From positions 1-64,000 of the forward strand of contig CALUWA010000001.1 of assembly GCA_944324365.1 (NCBI GenBank): 64,000 nucleotides of DNA. The letters run 5' to 3'. Numbering within the stretch: position 1 is the first letter of the stretch; the number at the start of each line of letters is the position of its first letter. This DNA comes from Candidatus Gastranaerophilales bacterium (GTDB taxonomy: Bacteria > Cyanobacteriota > Vampirovibrionia > Gastranaerophilales > Gastranaerophilaceae). This document shows positions 8,926 to 62,334 of the stretch, in pieces. Made by a program: the position numbers and the translations under genes. The notes under the pieces were generated by a model. It ran no database searches. It was given only the letters and a program-made list of their open reading frames with translations, and was not told where the DNA came from.

Positions 8926-9056
8926 CAAAAAAAAGTTGCCTGAAAAATAGGCAACATTAAATAAACACGAGGATATTAAGAGAGAGAGTATAAAGTCTGA
9001 TATATTTTGCTTTTTCTATTCTTTACCTTTTCCAATTATAATGATTTGATTTCCCT
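8926..9056 (-). ncRNA. Candidate small RNA ended by a rho-independent terminator
   Basis: On the minus strand a promoter-like motif at 9065-9092 is followed by about 130 bases with no usable ATG reading frame, ending in GTTGCCT-loop-AGGCAAC (8934-8955) and then eight T residues. The T-run lies on the minus-strand side only, so the terminator serves a leftward transcript, yet no protein gene lies on this strand between 8919 and 9239. An independent short RNA is the simplest reading. Confidence 0.5.
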
Positions 9057-9064
9057 TACATTTA

Positions 9065-9092
9065 TATAAAGTATTCCGTGTGGTTAAAATTG
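9065..9092 (-). promoter_or_regulatory. CAATT-N12-AATACTTTATA promoter-like motif
   Basis: Reading leftward: CAATT (9092-9088), 12 bases, AATACTTTATA (9075-9065). The same two boxes with the same 12-base spacing occur at 31125-31152, 52186-52213 and 62307-62334, each pointing at an unusual gene. Here it points at the small-RNA candidate. Confidence 0.6.
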
Positions 9093-31124: not shown

Positions 31125-31152
31125 CAATTCTTTGGATAAAAAATACTTTATA
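31125..31152 (+). promoter_or_regulatory. CAATT-N12-AATACTTTATA promoter-like motif
   Basis: CAATT at 31125-31129, 12 bases, AATACTTTATA at 31142-31152, followed by GATATATAAGAG. It lies 63 bp ahead of the 68-residue gene and is the only promoter-like signal there. Confidence 0.65.
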
Positions 31153-31215: not shown

Positions 31216-31422
31216 ATGGCGTACAACGGAGATTATGGCAATTATGCAATTGGAACGGATTCTGCCCGCAGAAAACGCCCTTTAGAAGAGTTGAAATCAT
31301 ATACCCGTGGAGCAAATGCAAATGATTTTAAATCAACATTTGTTCAAATGGGCACTATGATTGGTGATGCTTTAAGAACAGGGCAAGTAAGAGAAAGCTC
31401 TTCAGCTGCTTCTTCGTTATAG
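31216..31422 (+). CDS. Small Tyr/Ser-rich protein of unknown function
   Basis: 68 residues beginning MAYNGDYGNYAIGTDSARRK and ending in a Ser/Ala-rich tail. No signal peptide or membrane helix. A strong ribosome site AAAGGAG precedes the ATG, which supports real expression. It shares its upstream promoter-like motif with the glycine-zipper protein at 51322-52140 and the EF-hand protein at 61451-62287. Not recognised. Confidence 0.75.
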   Translation: MAYNGDYGNYAIGTDSARRKRPLEELKSYTRGANANDFKSTFVQMGTMIGDALRTGQVRESSSAASSL

Positions 31423-46428: not shown

Positions 46429-49398
46429 ATGACAACAGAAAACGTTTTAAACATAGATTTTTCAATAAAAAAGAACAATGTAGACGAATTATTTTTTAAT
46501 CTTTCCGAAAATCCGGAAGGGTTTAAAAACAAAGATTTTCGTTATACATTAAGTTTGATATACCAGACTATTGAAGATGAATTTAAAGACGTTTTTGTAA
46601 GCCCGCATTCGCCGGCAAGAAATACAGACTTCTTTCTTGTGAATGAAGGCGGAAAGCTGTCATTTTTCATTACTCCGACAAACAACTTTGAATATTACCT
46701 GAAATCAAAAGGATCCCTTTTCAGATTCCGCTCTCAGGTTCTCGGGGAATATGTGGGCTACGCAATGAGCCTTGATTTAGTTATGGATTATTTTGGAGGA
46801 TTCGGCGAAGTCATAGATATGGATTCACTGACTCCTACATTTATTTATATGAATTCGCTGGCACACTTTGTTATGAAACTAATTGAAAAATTATATTTCA
46901 TACCGGTTGTAAAAACCAAAGGTGCAATGTTTAAAATCGTTTATGAACCGATTATTCCAAACCAGCAGGTTGCAAGAATTATAAACCAGTTTGAAGAAAA
47001 TATTCCAGAAAATTTATTTATCAAAGGCGAAAAACCGGATAATTTTGTAAGAGATTTTATTCACAATTATATGAATTATGTCATATATAAATTCTTGAGC
47101 ATAAAAGCATACAAATTCAAGGACGTAAAATCCGGTACATATATGATAAAAGATCTGGAACAGCGTGCTTCAATGCGCGGTGTTGAAATTGCTGAGAATT
47201 TTTCACAATGGTTTGACGAATTGTATCTTGGCAAATACGATGTTATTCCGTTCTTTAAAATAGAAAAAGTTGAAGACGAATTATTCAGGCTAAAAGTTCA
47301 TATCAAAAACAGAAAAACCGGAGAAAGTGTTCTAATTGATGATCTTTACCATAAAGATACAATTTTTGATGCGAACTCTTCCGATATAGCTAAAATAGTT
47401 GAAAAACAGCTTAATTATGCAATCAAATATATGCCGGAACTTGAAGATTTATTCGAAGATGAAGAAAAACTTGCACTCGATTTAAACCTTAACGAAGTCT
47501 ACAAAATTATCACACAAACCGCTTATTACTTGCAAAAGGCGCAAATAGAGGTGATTTTACCGAAAGAACTCGTAAATATCGTAGTTCCGCGAGCTTCTAT
47601 TAATGCAAAAGTCAAAGCATCACGTTCAAAAGATTTGGCGGATATATTTAACAATACAGCTTCTAATAAAATGTCGCTGGATGATATTCTTGATTTTTCA
47701 TACGAAATTGCAATCGGGAACGAAAAAATTTCCGTAGAAGAGTTTAACAAACTTGTCGAAAACAACAACGGATTAATCAAGTACAAAAACAAATACGTAC
47801 TGATTGATAAAGAAGAAAGCAAAAAGATATTTGAGCAGATTGCAAAAGCAAACTTCAAGTCACTTTCAAGAATGGAGCTTATACATGCTTCTATGTCAGG
47901 CCAGCTTGCACAATACGAATTTGACTATGACGATGCATACGCAAGGATTATCCAAGACTTTACAAAACCTGTGGATGTCACTCCGCCAAAGACTTTAAAC
48001 GGAGAATTAAGACCATATCAGCTCACAGGTCTTAAATGGCTATGGACAAACGTTACAAAAGGTTTCGGCGTCTGTATGGCAGATGATATGGGGCTTGGAA
48101 AAACAATTCAAATTATCAGCTTAATTCTGAAATTAAAAGAAGAAGATAAACTTAAAAAACCGGTTCTTGTAATATGCCCTACAACTTTAATGGGTAACTG
48201 GATGAAAGAACTTCAAATGTTTGCGCCGAGCCTGGATGCCGTTGTTTATCACGGAACAGAGCGCAAACTTGAGGTTAATCACGATATAATTTTGACGACA
48301 TACGCTATTATGAGAATTGACGTTGAAGAGTTAAAGAAACATCAATGGGGAATGGTTATTGTTGACGAAGCTCAAAACATCAAAAACCCGGACACTGCGC
48401 AAACTCTTGCGATTAAAACATTAAAAGCAGATACTAAAGTTGCGATGACAGGTACCCCTGTAGAAAACAGATTAACAGAATTGTGGAGTATATTTGACTT
48501 TATTAACCAGGGATATCTCGGAAGCCTCAGGGAATTTCAAAAAAGCTATGCAATTCCTATTGAAAGGTTTAAAGAAAATTCACGTGCTGCAAAATTGAAA
48601 ATGTCAATTTCACCGTTTGTATTAAGACGTCTGAAAACCGATAAACACGTTATATCTGATTTGCCTGAAAAAATGGTGCTTAATGAATACTGCTATTTAT
48701 CAAAATCGCAGGCTGTATTATATGAAAAAACACTTAATGAAATGATGGCAAAAATCAGTGAATTTTCAGGCATTAACAGACGCGGAAATATATTTAAACT
48801 TATCACTGCTCTGAAACAAATCTGTAATCACCCATACCAGTTCTTAAAATCCGGTGATATGAACAGAGAAATGTCAGGGAAAATGGATAAATGTATTTCT
48901 ACAGTCGAAAGCATTCTTGAAAACGGTGAAAAAACACTTATCTTTACGCAATACAAAGAAATGGGTGATATCCTCTGCAAAGTAATAAAAGAAGAATGCG
49001 ATACCGAACCGCTCTTCTTCCATGGTTCATTGACCGTTCCGCAAAGGGAAGATTTAATTAACCGTTTCCAAAATGATGATGACGCAAAAATTATGATATT
49101 GTCATTAAAAGCCGGCGGTACAGGATTAAACCTAACAAGTGCAACCAACGTTATTCACTACGACCTTTGGTGGAATCCGGCAGTTGAAGACCAGGCAACG
49201 GACAGAACTTATAGAATAGGTCAAGATAAAAACGTAATGGTTCACCGAATGATTACACTCGGCACATTTGAAGAAAAAATAGATGAAATGCTGAAAACCA
49301 AAAAAGAACTGGCAAATCTTGCAGTTTACGAAGGCGAAAAAATTATCACAGAACTTTCAGACGAAGAAATTTACGAAATATTTACTTTATCTGCTTAG
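46429..49398 (+). CDS. SNF2-family DEAD/H-box helicase
   Basis: 989 residues. The C-terminal half is a Swi2/Snf2 ATPase: DDMGLGKTIQ (motif I, about residue 550), DEAQN (motif II, about 645), TGTPVEN, and in the second lobe SLKAGGTGLNLTSA and QATDRTYRIGQ. The N-terminal half, about 500 residues, has no recognised domain. It probably remodels nucleoprotein or RNA polymerase complexes. Its last four bases overlap the end of the convergent glycine-zipper gene. Confidence 0.9.
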   Translation: MTTENVLNIDFSIKKNNVDELFFNLSENPEGFKNKDFRYTLSLIYQTIEDEFKDVFVSPHSPARNTDFFLVNEGGKLSFFITPTNNFEYYLKSKGSLFRFRSQVLGEYVGYAMSLDLVMDYFGGFGEVIDMDSLTPTFIYMNSLAHFVMKLIEKLYFIPVVKTKGAMFKIVYEPIIPNQQVARIINQFEENIPENLFIKGEKPDNFVRDFIHNYMNYVIYKFLSIKAYKFKDVKSGTYMIKDLEQRASMRGVEIAENFSQWFDELYLGKYDVIPFFKIEKVEDELFRLKVHIKNRKTGESVLIDDLYHKDTIFDANSSDIAKIVEKQLNYAIKYMPELEDLFEDEEKLALDLNLNEVYKIITQTAYYLQKAQIEVILPKELVNIVVPRASINAKVKASRSKDLADIFNNTASNKMSLDDILDFSYEIAIGNEKISVEEFNKLVENNNGLIKYKNKYVLIDKEESKKIFEQIAKANFKSLSRMELIHASMSGQLAQYEFDYDDAYARIIQDFTKPVDVTPPKTLNGELRPYQLTGLKWLWTNVTKGFGVCMADDMGLGKTIQIISLILKLKEEDKLKKPVLVICPTTLMGNWMKELQMFAPSLDAVVYHGTERKLEVNHDIILTTYAIMRIDVEELKKHQWGMVIVDEAQNIKNPDTAQTLAIKTLKADTKVAMTGTPVENRLTELWSIFDFINQGYLGSLREFQKSYAIPIERFKENSRAAKLKMSISPFVLRRLKTDKHVISDLPEKMVLNEYCYLSKSQAVLYEKTLNEMMAKISEFSGINRRGNIFKLITALKQICNHPYQFLKSGDMNREMSGKMDKCISTVESILENGEKTLIFTQYKEMGDILCKVIKEECDTEPLFFHGSLTVPQREDLINRFQNDDDAKIMILSLKAGGTGLNLTSATNVIHYDLWWNPAVEDQATDRTYRIGQDKNVMVHRMITLGTFEEKIDEMLKTKKELANLAVYEGEKIITELSDEEIYEIFTLSA

Positions 49399-51179
49399 TA
49401 CATACCGCCAAGCGCCCACGGATTTTGCATCATCATTGAGTAATCAGGCACCATAGAAGTTTGCGCGCCGCCGTTAATTCTTTCTTTAAATTTTCTCATT
49501 GTGGCCTGGAGCGGAGTTTCTGACGGCTGCTGGGCAGTTTGTTCTTGTGATGCTGTCTGATTATCAGGATTTTGAGAATCAGAAGCAGTACCAGACTGTT
49601 GAGATGAAGTATCTGCATCATTCATGCCTAAATCTGTTGCTATATCCTGCATAAGTTCCGGATCATCTTCCGCAATATTTTGCAGTGAGACTGCTGCTTT
49701 TTCCATCCGTTCTTTCATAACAGGGTTTGACATCTTAGGATCTTTTTGCCCTTGTTGTTCAAGCTGTTGTGCAGCCTGCATATCCTGAGCAAGCGTCAGA
49801 GCAGATTCTTTAACAAGATTTTCTCTTGTGCTTCTGCTGTATTTAGCTCTTAAGGCTCTTAATTTAGCTTTTTTAGTTCCAATCTTATCAGCTTCTGATA
49901 CATCGCAGCCCAATGCTTTATGCGCAAGCTTACCTAATCCCCAGCTTGCAAGACCGCCTATAACAGCACCGGCAATACCGCCTACAATATTTCCGACACC
50001 AGGAACAACTGAGCCGACTGCAGTACCAATTGCAGCCCCTGCTTTCATACCGGCCATAAATCCGACAGCTTCAACAGCCGCAACACCAGTTGATTTTGCA
50101 ATTTCTTTTGTCATTGCCTTTGTTCCGCCGGCTTGCTTAGCTGCTGCAAACTTATCATAATCAGCCGCTACAGATAACGCTGCAAATGCCGCATTTCCTT
50201 TAACAAATTTCCCTGCAACACGGAATGCCTTAGAACCTGCATTTAAAGATTTTACGGCCGTGTTTGCAGCTCTTACACCTGTTACCGTTTTTGCTGTATT
50301 TTTTACTTTACCTAAGACGGATTTTGGTTTTAAATTTCCGTTATATTTCGCTTTGTAGGCGTCGAGTTTTGCCTGTGCAATAAGTTGTTCAGCTTCTTTG
50401 AGCTTTTTAACCTGAGCTGCGCCTTTTAAGCCCTTTGCTTCGCTTAACGCTTGTCTTGCCTGATTATAATAATTAGCCTTTAATTCAGGAAGAAGATTTT
50501 TATTTAATAATTTATCCGCCTGCTTAATTTTCTTTGATAAAGCTGAACCTGAAAGCCCCTTAGCCTCATCAAATAACTTTTTAACGTCTGCATAATATTG
50601 AGTTGAATTAACTTTTATTTTTGCGGCATCGTAAACCTTTTTTAACTCTGCAAGCTTTGCTCTGCGCGCAGAACCGGTTAAATTGTTAGCCTCAGCAAGC
50701 AGTTTTCTTGCTTCTTTGTAGTAAACATCTTTTGCCGCTTTTAAATTTGCCGCATCAAAGAGCTTTGCAGCCTCCTGGAATTTTGCAGCCTGTGCTGCAC
50801 CTTTTAATTTAGACGCTTCTGCCAATGCTTTTTGAGCTTCTTTAAAATAATCAGCTTTTCCTGCAACAGCACGCGGAATAGATTTTTCCATTTCAAGGAT
50901 TGTATTATATCTGCTGGCATTTTTATAAGTTTCAAAAGCACTTTTGCCCTTTAACTGCCGCAATTCAATTTGTTTTCTCAGCTGGGTAAATTTTGAAGGT
51001 TTGTTTTTGGAAAAGGTATTGTAAAGCTTGCCGCCACCGTAACGTGCAAGCTCAATTCCGGAACCTATAGCACCGTTAAGTAATACCCCATCGGTAAAGG
51101 ACATATAGCTGTTATCCAGCCCAGTCGTATTCAGGTACATTGCTAAATTATAGTAATCATTATATCCATTAACTGACAT
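49395..51179 (-). CDS. Helical-repeat and glycine-zipper protein
   Basis: 594 residues from the ATG at 51179, which follows AAGGAAA; a longer frame from 51248 is unsupported. About residues 90-275 hold four repeats of about 42 residues (pattern YxxEARKLLAEAxxLxGxA). A Gly-zipper membrane segment follows (GFMAGMKAGAAIGTAVG, then VGNIVGGIAGAVIGGLAS), and the C-terminal third is Gln/Ser-rich and ends in MMQNPWALGGMY. The zipper and the MMQNP tail recur in the next gene. No signal peptide. The repeats, zipper and low-complexity tail suggest an envelope-associated or secreted protein. Confidence 0.75.
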   Translation of the reverse strand: MSVNGYNDYYNLAMYLNTTGLDNSYMSFTDGVLLNGAIGSGIELARYGGGKLYNTFSKNKPSKFTQLRKQIELRQLKGKSAFETYKNASRYNTILEMEKSIPRAVAGKADYFKEAQKALAEASKLKGAAQAAKFQEAAKLFDAANLKAAKDVYYKEARKLLAEANNLTGSARRAKLAELKKVYDAAKIKVNSTQYYADVKKLFDEAKGLSGSALSKKIKQADKLLNKNLLPELKANYYNQARQALSEAKGLKGAAQVKKLKEAEQLIAQAKLDAYKAKYNGNLKPKSVLGKVKNTAKTVTGVRAANTAVKSLNAGSKAFRVAGKFVKGNAAFAALSVAADYDKFAAAKQAGGTKAMTKEIAKSTGVAAVEAVGFMAGMKAGAAIGTAVGSVVPGVGNIVGGIAGAVIGGLASWGLGKLAHKALGCDVSEADKIGTKKAKLRALRAKYSRSTRENLVKESALTLAQDMQAAQQLEQQGQKDPKMSNPVMKERMEKAAVSLQNIAEDDPELMQDIATDLGMNDADTSSQQSGTASDSQNPDNQTASQEQTAQQPSETPLQATMRKFKERINGGAQTSMVPDYSMMMQNPWALGGMY

Positions 51180-51216: not shown

Positions 51217-51244
51217 TATAAAGGAAATTTAAAAGCAAAAAATG
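51217..51244 (-). promoter_or_regulatory. Weak variant of the CAATT-N12 promoter-like motif
   Basis: On the minus strand CATTT, 12 bases, TTTCCTTTATA, followed by TAAATACAGGGG. It keeps the spacing and the CTTTATA core but not the AATAC half, about 38 bases ahead of the chosen start. Confidence 0.35.
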
Positions 51245-51321: not shown

Positions 51322-52140
51322 TTAAGCTTTGCTTGCTGCATAATACTGTGCGAACAACTCCGGATTTTGCATCATAGCCATCTGCAGCTGCTGCATCATA
51401 TACTGATCTGCATTCATTGCAAATGGGTTTGTTGTTCCTGTATCAAACCCTTGTGTCATAGCTTTTTGAGCTTGTTCCTGCTGCTCAGCCTTCTTTTCGG
51501 AATAGCTTTTACCTACAATTTTACTTGTAACCCATTCCCCGATTAAACCGCCTATGATACCACCGACAATTGGAATAGGACATAATGCCTGACCGATACA
51601 GAAACCTGCCATACTACCAACAGCTCTTGAACCGGCTTTAACAAGCTCGGCACCGCCATCCACAATTCCTCCATCCATAGTAGCTTTGACTATATTAGGA
51701 GTTTCAAATGCCAAGAAGAGCAATGAACCTATTAAAGGCATCTTTGTGCCCAAAGTCTTTCCTACGCCTTTTATACTGCCCCAAAGTCCGGATTTCCCGG
51801 CTGCCTTTGCAGCAGTTGCTCCTTCAGTCCATGCTTTTGAAACACTTGACGGAATATCAGTCAAATTTTTCTTCATAGCTTTCCAAAAGCCGCCTTCTTG
51901 CTTTATTAACTGCTCATTATGAGCTTCTGATGCTTTAAATGCATTTTTTAATTTAGTCCAAAAATTCTTATAACCGGTACCGCCGACATATTTACCATCA
52001 GCACCTTTTACACCGCGCACAGCCTCACGCAAAGACTTTTCAAAAGCCTCACCGCCGGTACCTAATGCAAAATCAGGAGCCATTTTTAAACCGCGTTTTG
52101 CGTAATTCCATACTCTGTTTAAAGTAACAGGATTAATCAT
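51322..52140 (-). CDS. Glycine-zipper protein of unknown family
   Basis: 272 residues. A basic N-terminal region (WNYAKRGLKMAPDFALGTGG, FWTKLKNAFKAS) leads to hydrophobic segments GSLLFLAFETPNIV and GSMAGFCIGQALCPIPI, then VGGIIGGLIGEWV, matching the zipper of the adjacent protein. The end is Gln/Met-rich with MMQNPELF. The ATG at 52140 follows AGGTAGG. With its neighbour it probably forms a related pair; both use a similar upstream motif. No function is known. Confidence 0.75.
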   Translation of the reverse strand: MINPVTLNRVWNYAKRGLKMAPDFALGTGGEAFEKSLREAVRGVKGADGKYVGGTGYKNFWTKLKNAFKASEAHNEQLIKQEGGFWKAMKKNLTDIPSSVSKAWTEGATAAKAAGKSGLWGSIKGVGKTLGTKMPLIGSLLFLAFETPNIVKATMDGGIVDGGAELVKAGSRAVGSMAGFCIGQALCPIPIVGGIIGGLIGEWVTSKIVGKSYSEKKAEQQEQAQKAMTQGFDTGTTNPFAMNADQYMMQQLQMAMMQNPELFAQYYAASKA

Positions 52141-52185: not shown

Positions 52186-52213
52186 TATAAAGTATTTTGT
52201 TATTTATAAATTG
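52186..52213 (-). promoter_or_regulatory. CAATT-N12-AATACTTTATA promoter-like motif
   Basis: On the minus strand CAATT (52213-52209), 12 bases, AATACTTTATA (52196-52186), followed by TAAGTAAG. It lies 46 bases ahead of the glycine-zipper gene start at 52140. Confidence 0.65.
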
Positions 52214-61459: not shown

Positions 61460-62287
61460 CATATTAAACAGGTTGTTGTAATTTTCCTTAACCTTGGTTT
61501 CAGCTCCGGTTCCGGCATTTAACAGTGTTTGCATGCTTTTTATAGCATCTTCGTTTTTGATGGTTCCGTCGTATTTACCGTTTGCACCGGCTGCATCTGC
61601 AAAACTCATTAGAGTTGCGACTTCTTTCCAATCTAATTTGCCTTCTTTTGTCAAATCAAGACTGTCAAAAATTTTATCCGCATCGGCTTCCAGTTGTGCA
61701 GTGTTTGTTTGTGATGCAGCATTGTTGCTTACCTGTGATATATAATATGCCCTGAACTCTGCCTTTGATAAATATCCGTCTTTATCACCGAGCGCGCTTT
61801 GATCAATAAATGCAGTTACGGATTTTCCTAAGTTGCCGATAAAATCACGGTATTTTGTATGCATTTGCAAGTGTTCGTATTGATTTTTATTAGTTTTTGC
61901 ATTCAGTTGCTTCCATCTGTTTGAGACAAATTGTGTTTCCGGTGCACCAACAAGATTTTCTCCTAATGATTTAGCTTGAGATGAGCTTACGGCACCGGCA
62001 TCAGTGGCAGTAAAAGTTCTACCCGGCTGTACATAAGGGTTTGTACTCAATGGCGGTACTGATGCGTACGGCGAATTATAGACCGGATACGTCGGTGTGT
62101 ACTGCTGATAAGGCATGTACGATTGATATGGAGTATAGTATGACCTTGCTATCGGGAATACACTCCAACCCAGCGGAAATAAACTGCGCGGATTTGTCAT
62201 GATTTCTGCACCAAGACATAATGCTGACGTTTGTTTTAGAAAATTTGGCAGTCTATTCAATACATTGTTCCAGTATTGTGAAGTCAT
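61451..62287 (-). CDS. EF-hand calcium-binding protein, possibly exported
   Basis: 278 residues. The N-terminal 110 are Pro/Tyr-rich (YTPYQSYMPYQQYTPTYPVY). The C-terminal half holds EF-hand-like loops: one ending GDKDGYLSKAEF (first ligand position not acidic), one at DLTKEGKLDWKE, and a degenerate third. No signal peptide, but the start MTSQYWNNVLN resembles leader regions of other small lineage proteins. A ribosome site GAGAGG and the CAATT-N12 motif precede the ATG. The role is unknown. Confidence 0.75.
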   Translation of the reverse strand: MTSQYWNNVLNRLPNFLKQTSALCLGAEIMTNPRSLFPLGWSVFPIARSYYTPYQSYMPYQQYTPTYPVYNSPYASVPPLSTNPYVQPGRTFTATDAGAVSSSQAKSLGENLVGAPETQFVSNRWKQLNAKTNKNQYEHLQMHTKYRDFIGNLGKSVTAFIDQSALGDKDGYLSKAEFRAYYISQVSNNAASQTNTAQLEADADKIFDSLDLTKEGKLDWKEVATLMSFADAAGANGKYDGTIKNEDAIKSMQTLLNAGTGAETKVKENYNNLFNMLS

Positions 62288-62306: not shown

Positions 62307-62334
62307 TATAAAGTATTTTATTTATATATAATTG
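62307..62334 (-). promoter_or_regulatory. CAATT-N12-AATACTTTATA promoter-like motif
   Basis: On the minus strand CAATT (62334-62330), 12 bases, AATACTTTATA (62317-62307), followed by TATATAAGAG. It ends about 20 bases before the EF-hand gene start. Confidence 0.65.

Follow-up and report, generated by a model that had tools for sequence, protein, structure and literature searches.

Gastranaerophilales, a non-photosynthetic group within the cyanobacterial line whose members are mostly gut bacteria, are common in the intestines of animals and humans, yet hardly studied. A search of the literature finds no paper in which a promoter class, a sigma regulon or a small RNA is described for Gastranaerophilales or Melainabacteria. 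The closest described systems come from other settings. One of them is the sigma-28 (FliA) regulon, which resembles the regulon described here in its extended -10 alternative-sigma promoter and its genes for exported proteins; the genome studied also encodes FliA and a flagellar-type apparatus. The two promoters differ, however (TAAA-N15-GCCGATAA, common to flagellin genes, versus GCAATT-N12-AATACTTTATA here), and in relatives the motif is missing from the flagellin genes.

In the enterobacterial sigma-E regulon, a single promoter class drives protein genes together with trans-acting small RNAs (sRNAs) such as MicA and RybB. The regulon proposed here likewise combines protein genes and sRNAs under one promoter class. 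The sigma-E sRNAs silence genes outside their own regulon, whereas complementarity in the present case points to leaders of the same regulon. Type III effectors and exported flagellar muramidases (FlgJ) have no signal peptide and carry muramidase-type domains. The regulon proteins are similar in that they lack signal peptides, have disordered N-termini rich in S, T, N, G and P, and include muramidase-type and GDPD/AvrBs2-type domains; they differ in showing no sequence relation to type III effectors beyond weak domain matches, and their export is presumptive.

Yfr1 of photosynthetic cyanobacteria is an RNA of 54-69 nt with two hairpins and an unpaired ACUCCUCACAC (PMC2190773). The small RNA found here, sRNA-B, shares with Yfr1 the short length, a stretch rich in C and U that is ultra-conserved, unpaired and similar to an anti-Shine-Dalgarno sequence, a terminator hairpin and a lineage-wide distribution. 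In contrast to Yfr1, sRNA-B is about 130 nt long, carries CUCUCUUAAUAUCCUCGUG and has no Rfam match; an unpaired ACUCCUCACAC between two hairpins was sought in its sequence and is absent.

The motif and its distribution

The window is the whole stretch of DNA analysed, 64,000 nucleotides from the contig CALUWA010000001.1 of a Candidatus Gastranaerophilales bacterium. The preliminary description reported a bipartite element, CAATT-N12-AATACTTTATA, at four loci with a fixed 12-nt spacing, as well as a weaker form at a fifth. Pattern matching places the AATACTTTATA box 12 nt from CAATT with zero mismatches at all four loci, and the weaker form is recovered by a 40-column matrix trained on the promoters of sRNA-B, an orthologous RNA, in other genomes. 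The training set consists of the best motif match near the sRNA-B core, which makes the matrix independent of the window, not of the motif definition. Exactly five sites in the window exceed 16 bits, and shuffled windows reach at most 15.6.

9065-9092, minus strand: predicted promoter of sRNA-B, with CAATT at 9088-9092, N12 and AATACTTTATA at 9065-9075; exact match, matrix score 30.5
31125-31152, plus strand: predicted promoter CAATT-N12-AATACTTTATA; exact match, matrix score 34.5
51217-51244, minus strand: weaker predicted promoter GGCATTTTTT-N-CCTTTATATAAATA; matrix score 19.3, above all shuffled windows
52186-52213, minus strand: predicted promoter CAATT-N12-AATACTTTATA; exact match, matrix score 32.9
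62307-62334, minus strand: predicted promoter CAATT-N12-AATACTTTATA; exact match, matrix score 26.2

The genome of the window (2.05 Mb in 36 contigs) harbors nine exact sites, four of which fall inside the window, compared with none for a reversed-pattern control and an expectation of 0.012 under an order-1 Markov model. The 34 genomes of its family (f1) contain 219 exact sites versus 5 control sites. An exact-site search detects the motif in 46 of 57 relatives and not in the outgroup G056, and 24 exact matches are present among the 2.9 million viral contigs scanned. When the spacer is left free from N6 to N18, about 9 of the roughly 150 matches listed differ from N12 (∼94% N12). The motif is thus confirmed as real and over-represented far beyond chance, and it survives the comparison with chance frequency that the preliminary description had proposed. 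That the motif arises by chance or from the composition of AT-rich intergenic DNA has next to no probability: the motif itself is AT-rich and comes near background once three mismatches are allowed (185 versus 156 controls), but the hundreds-fold excess of exact sites and the almost empty reversed controls refute such an origin.

Promoter anatomy

The conserved motif, A-R-G-CAATTTTT-N7-AAAATACTTTATATAWAT, is longer than previously described, and 114 distinct exact sites with their surroundings yield the fuller element A-R-G-CAATTTTT-N7-AAAATACTTTATA-TA-W-AT. Comparison of 45 promoters with matched start codons, and of the orthologous promoters of two sRNAs, reveals a conserved -35 box, AAG[GT][CA]AATTTT, and a -10 core, [C/G]TTTAT[A/T], in which [C/G]TTTAT is the most change-resistant part of the motif. 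The AATA located 5' of the core is softer, as AATTAC, AAAAC, AACG and AATTG are also seen. Start codons lie mostly 18-54 nt 3' of TTTATA (mode 31-33, median 36), distances that fit a promoter whose transcript begins a few bases after TTTATA, while a smaller class of genes has leaders of 127-156 nt.

The two boxes, their near-constant spacing and their over-representation 5' of genes are the features of an alternative promoter of the sigma70 family, and the boxes differ from the housekeeping arrangement TTGACA-N17-TATAAT. A housekeeping RpoD polymerase assisted by a dedicated, CAATT-binding activator is an unlikely reader. TTTATA can serve as a poor -10 box, and one shared activator would account for one conserved upstream box; nevertheless, the rigidity of both boxes and of the spacing suits a single protein that reads both, the -10 region is atypical and conserved, and no housekeeping genes are recognised among the 96 downstream proteins scanned against Pfam. 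Judged from sequence, the motif constitutes a -35/-10 promoter class that serves a dedicated regulon. The system extends across the order Gastranaerophilales, with promoter variants outside the family of the window. The earlier suggestion of a regulon controlled by an alternative sigma factor or a shared activator agrees with the rigid spacing, the orientation, the start-codon distance and the coherent gene set, all of which fit a promoter.

Small RNAs

The motif stands before at least three small-RNA genes, and none of the three RNAs listed here matches Rfam at threshold.

8927-9060, minus strand: sRNA-B, about 130 nt (5' end estimated), ...UAUACUCUCUCUCUUAAUAUCCUCGUGUUUAUUUAAU, terminator GUUGCC-loop-GGCAAC-U8 at 8927-8955
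L089:3584-3690 (C29 of the genome): sRNA-A, about 90 nt, motif-driven, body AUAUAAAGCUCUCUCUUCUUAUUUAAACGGAUAGGCCUUGA followed by a terminator
L025:1501-1660 (C17:6362 of the genome): sRNA-C, motif-driven, CACUACCUACUACACACUAACCUUC, rich in CUACC/CUAACC, with a terminator

The transcript of the site at 9065 is likely the small RNA sRNA-B. A scan of GTDB genomes turns up the sRNA-B core, CUCUCUUAAUAUCCUCGUGU, on at least 118 contig stretches; with few exceptions, the records listed carry the label Gastranaerophilales, Melainabacteria, Cyanobacteria or unnamed bacterium. The motif, with up to three mismatches, lies 5' of 104 of 121 copies, mostly 103-175 nt before the core, and several of the remaining copies are cut by a contig end. 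Core and promoter are conserved jointly across the order, and an alignment of 50 copies shows no change in the core. The terminator arms co-vary, with 14 arm pairs such as GTTGCC/GGCAAC, GTTTGC/GCAAAC and GTTGCT/AGCAAC; since these variable terminators cannot be aligned, RNAalifold yields no consensus structure for sRNA-B.

sRNA-A adjoins the gene of a divergent sigma factor (the C29 sigma, discussed below) in 15 genomes of f1, where its body is invariant, its promoter conserved and the spacer drifting. Relatives of sRNA-C are present at L136, L238, L039 and probably L036. At L006 (C15:2322 of the genome), the motif is followed by ∼40 nt, a strong terminator (GGAAAGGGGCGACGAGCCCCUUCC-U7) and then an ORF, an arrangement consistent with a very short RNA or an attenuator.

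Proteins encoded downstream of the motif

The four exact sites of the window precede the gene types claimed in the preliminary description, namely a small-RNA candidate, a 68-aa protein, a 272-aa protein and an EF-hand protein. The protein genes of the window, including the one associated with the weaker site, are as follows.

31216-31422, plus strand: 68-aa protein MAYNGDYGNYAIGTDSARRK..., with no Pfam match
49395-51179, minus strand: protein of about 594 aa, ATG at 51179, with no significant Pfam match for the one N-terminal variant scanned
51322-52140, minus strand: 272-aa protein without a signal peptide, with a glycine-rich hydrophobic segment
61451-62287, minus strand: 278-aa EF-hand protein without a signal peptide, leader AAGAGAGGAUAAG

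The 278-aa protein matches Pfam EF-hand_7 with E=1.7e-6, just under the Pfam cut-off. Behind exact motif sites, 101 proteins are readable, of which 96 were scanned against Pfam. Fifty-one of the 101 have no relative in the set, and 20 Pfam families occur among the 96, in keeping with the earlier view that the genes are lineage-specific. The domains detected are CHAP (6), HD (4), SLT transglycosylase (2) and tail lysozyme (2), with single cases of GDPD, peptidase M23, subtilase, EF-hand, CheR and RHH, and a comparison with NCBIfam contributes weak matches to the type III system proteins AvrBs2 and IagB. Proteins with known domains are mostly enzymes of extracytoplasmic type (CHAP, SLT, M23, GDPD). 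The matrix detects another regulon member at L088:12404-12470 (C1 of the genome), an HD-domain protein of the family found at L187, L218, L228 and L229.

Signal peptides, as assessed by a crude hydropathy test, are found in none of the 101 regulon proteins versus 28 of 176 background proteins (p=1.5e-6). The N-termini of the regulon proteins are rich in S, T, N, Q, G and P and poor in L, I, V and in K and R.

Proposed export route and flagellar-type apparatus

That enzymes acting on cell wall and phospholipid lack signal peptides points to an exporter other than Sec or to release by lysis. The regulon proteins are probably exported by a non-Sec route, as suggested by the missing signal peptides and the domain types. 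The genome of the window encodes FliE, FliF, a complete FlhA and another protein limited to the FHIPEP C-terminal part, and rod-type genes adjoin FliA. Flagellin is not found in this genome, in any genome of its genus or in most of f1. With regulon proteins that lack signal peptides and with FliE, FliF and FlhA encoded, a flagellar-type apparatus without flagellin is a candidate for their export route.

Two parts of the genome, C10 (L087) and C21 (L071), carry fliE, fliF, flhA, flgB/C/F/G-like genes and fliA, the composition of a filament-less flagellar apparatus. The FHIPEP protein at L086:8711-10189 (minus strand) consists of 492 aa and has the C-terminal half only (the FlhA cytoplasmic domain, E=2e-44), with no membrane half; its gene adjoins that of a 4-alpha-glucanotransferase. 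Among genomes of this group, some have complete flagella and others have partial sets (PMC3787301, PMC4040986, PMC5877343).

Candidate sigma factors

Eight sigma70-family genes are present in the genome of the window: RpoD, two RpoD-like genes, a divergent RpoD-family gene (C29), two ECF genes, a FliA/WhiG-type gene and a SigF-type gene. All eight are broadly order-wide, and presence or absence alone therefore cannot single out the reader of the motif. A Sigma70_r2 family search over relatives returns mostly RpoD-family matches. The SigF-type sigma was considered as the reader and rejected, since it is absent from the motif-bearing, near-complete genomes G002 and G019.

The divergent C29 sigma is the first choice as the reader, put forward tentatively and with a little under half of our confidence.

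L089:4374-5288 (locus L063): gene of the C29 sigma, in which the residues predicted to read the -10 and -35 boxes are unlike those of RpoD

Region 4.2 of this sigma reads KECIRQTE versus RERIRQIE in RpoD and does not differ among 45 aligned orthologs from across the order. Regions 2.4 and 3.0 are altered as well, and region 2.4 varies between families where the promoters vary too: the -10 variants are ACTTTATA versus GTTTATA, and the region 2.4 residue is F versus N, Y or L. The outgroup G056 has no close ortholog, which counts in favor of this sigma, as does the motif-driven sRNA-A beside its gene. The C29 sigma is not found in the motif-bearing genomes G014 (93% complete) and G001 (84%), both of which may be incomplete, and the motif does not occur upstream of the C29 sigma gene itself.

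An initial hypothesis of FliA as the reader was set aside, as the flagellin promoters of relatives are motif-free and partly sigma-28-like. If the FliA/WhiG-type sigma (contig C21) did read the motif, expression of exported proteins would be tied to completion of the flagellar-type apparatus, a regulatory logic that suits exported substrates. Almost all f1 genomes with the motif, most of them flagellin-less, retain FliA at 58-91% identity, and its gene adjoins rod genes of the flgB/C/F/G type. Nonetheless, its DNA-reading regions are FliA-like (RIRGA..PRSVR, ESRVCQLHAQAI), and it passes the NCBIfam FliA cut-offs. Several flagellin promoters of relatives resemble TAAA-N15-GCCGATTA, one of them in the f1 member G027, which is itself motif-bearing, and the motif, with up to three mismatches, is absent upstream of 20 flagellin-type genes of f1. 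A canonical-looking sigma-28 site also precedes an effector-like gene in the genome of the window. FliA is accordingly improbable as the reader.

In the DNA of the window's genome that was examined, sigma-28 sites are not clearly enriched (N15, one mismatch, 11 versus 11 in the control). At L075 on the minus strand (C2 of the genome), a sigma-28-like TAAAGTTT-N11-GCCGATAT lies 64 nt before the ORF MAISVYEQLNNMGLSIDRTTLQQ... and is possibly a remaining FliA target. The upstream regions of flagellin genes in relatives (for example L274, L276 and L283) contain repeated CTAAAGTAT / ATACTTTAGTAT before many of these genes; the repeats are perhaps a regulator site as well as the sigma-28 -35 box.

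ECF promoters have a layout that a -35 box, a T tract and 16 nt to a CTTTAT-like box would resemble, and the genes of ECF sigmas are as a rule autoregulated. Of the two ECF sigmas, either C1 or C22 could on this basis read the motif, since GGCAATTTT-N-CTTTAT resembles the ECF architecture (GGAACTT-N16-) and both genes are order-wide. Their involvement is doubtful, however: the motif, with up to two mismatches, occurs in none of 30 C1-ECF loci, and an ortholog of the C1 ECF (47%) is present in G056, the outgroup without an exact motif. The C22 ECF adjoins a putative anti-sigma and a Spy/CpxP-like gene, an envelope-stress setting, and has no motif upstream. An ECF promoter would be expected to have an AAC-type -35 box and a CGTC-like -10 box and to serve its own sigma gene, a profile that the motif, missing from the loci of both ECF genes, does not fit.

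Complementarity between small RNAs and regulon leaders

Complementarity was scored against conserved stretches of sRNAs chosen after inspection. sRNA-B has at least 9 bp of perfect complementarity in 11 of 87 regulon leaders versus 7 of 363 background leaders (p=8e-5), and none of 300 shuffled RNAs equals this count. The corresponding values for sRNA-C are 9 of 87 versus 2 of 363 (p=1e-5), equalled by 1 of 300 shuffled RNAs; in both comparisons orthologous genes are counted, and the independent cases are fewer. sRNA-A displays no significant complementarity in the same 87 regulon and 363 background leaders. The signal was weaker in a first test with 40-nt leaders.

Within the window, the leader of the gene at 31216 forms a predicted duplex of -20.7 kcal/mol with sRNA-B that spans the Shine-Dalgarno sequence and the start (AGUCUGAUAU, 10 bp), the leader AAGAGAGGAUAAG at 62287 one of -17.8 kcal/mol with sRNA-B, and the leader at 52140 one of -24.0 kcal/mol with sRNA-C; the shuffled-RNA control applies to the 87-leader counts, not to these three energies. 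The two sRNAs are also mutually complementary over 9 bp (predicted -15.4 kcal/mol). These matches suggest that the sRNAs may control regulon mRNAs through RNA-RNA pairing.

Proposed mechanism and significance

Sequence comparison establishes the promoter class and its regulon, conserved RNAs included. From these we infer the sigma factor, the export route and the RNA-RNA control. Taken jointly, a dedicated-regulon promoter, a specialised sigma that is most likely C29, products exported by a non-Sec route and two sRNAs, B and C, that tune translation of the regulon form a probable reading. RNA polymerase with the specialised sigma, most likely the divergent RpoD-family C29, would read the -35/-10 motif. 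The regulon would yield proteins without signal peptides, whose exit may most simply proceed via the flagellar-type export apparatus, which this genus retains in the absence of flagellin. As co-transcribed RNAs, sRNA-B and sRNA-C would pair with regulon leaders over or near the ribosome-binding site, probably adjusting translation.

A bolder version is speculative and on balance doubtful: the flagellar exporter, its filament lost, would have turned into a general secretion machine in gut Gastranaerophilales, its substrates would make up a single regulon under the divergent sigma with a promoter code of its own, and the two regulon-encoded anti-RBS sRNAs would sort substrate mRNAs into subsets by pairing with the leaders. 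In any genome of the order, the promoter alone serves to find candidate secreted proteins that would face the host or other microbes, even though these proteins share little sequence. The system also provides an order-wide, conserved small-RNA family, together with a testable code of sRNA-mRNA pairing within one regulon.
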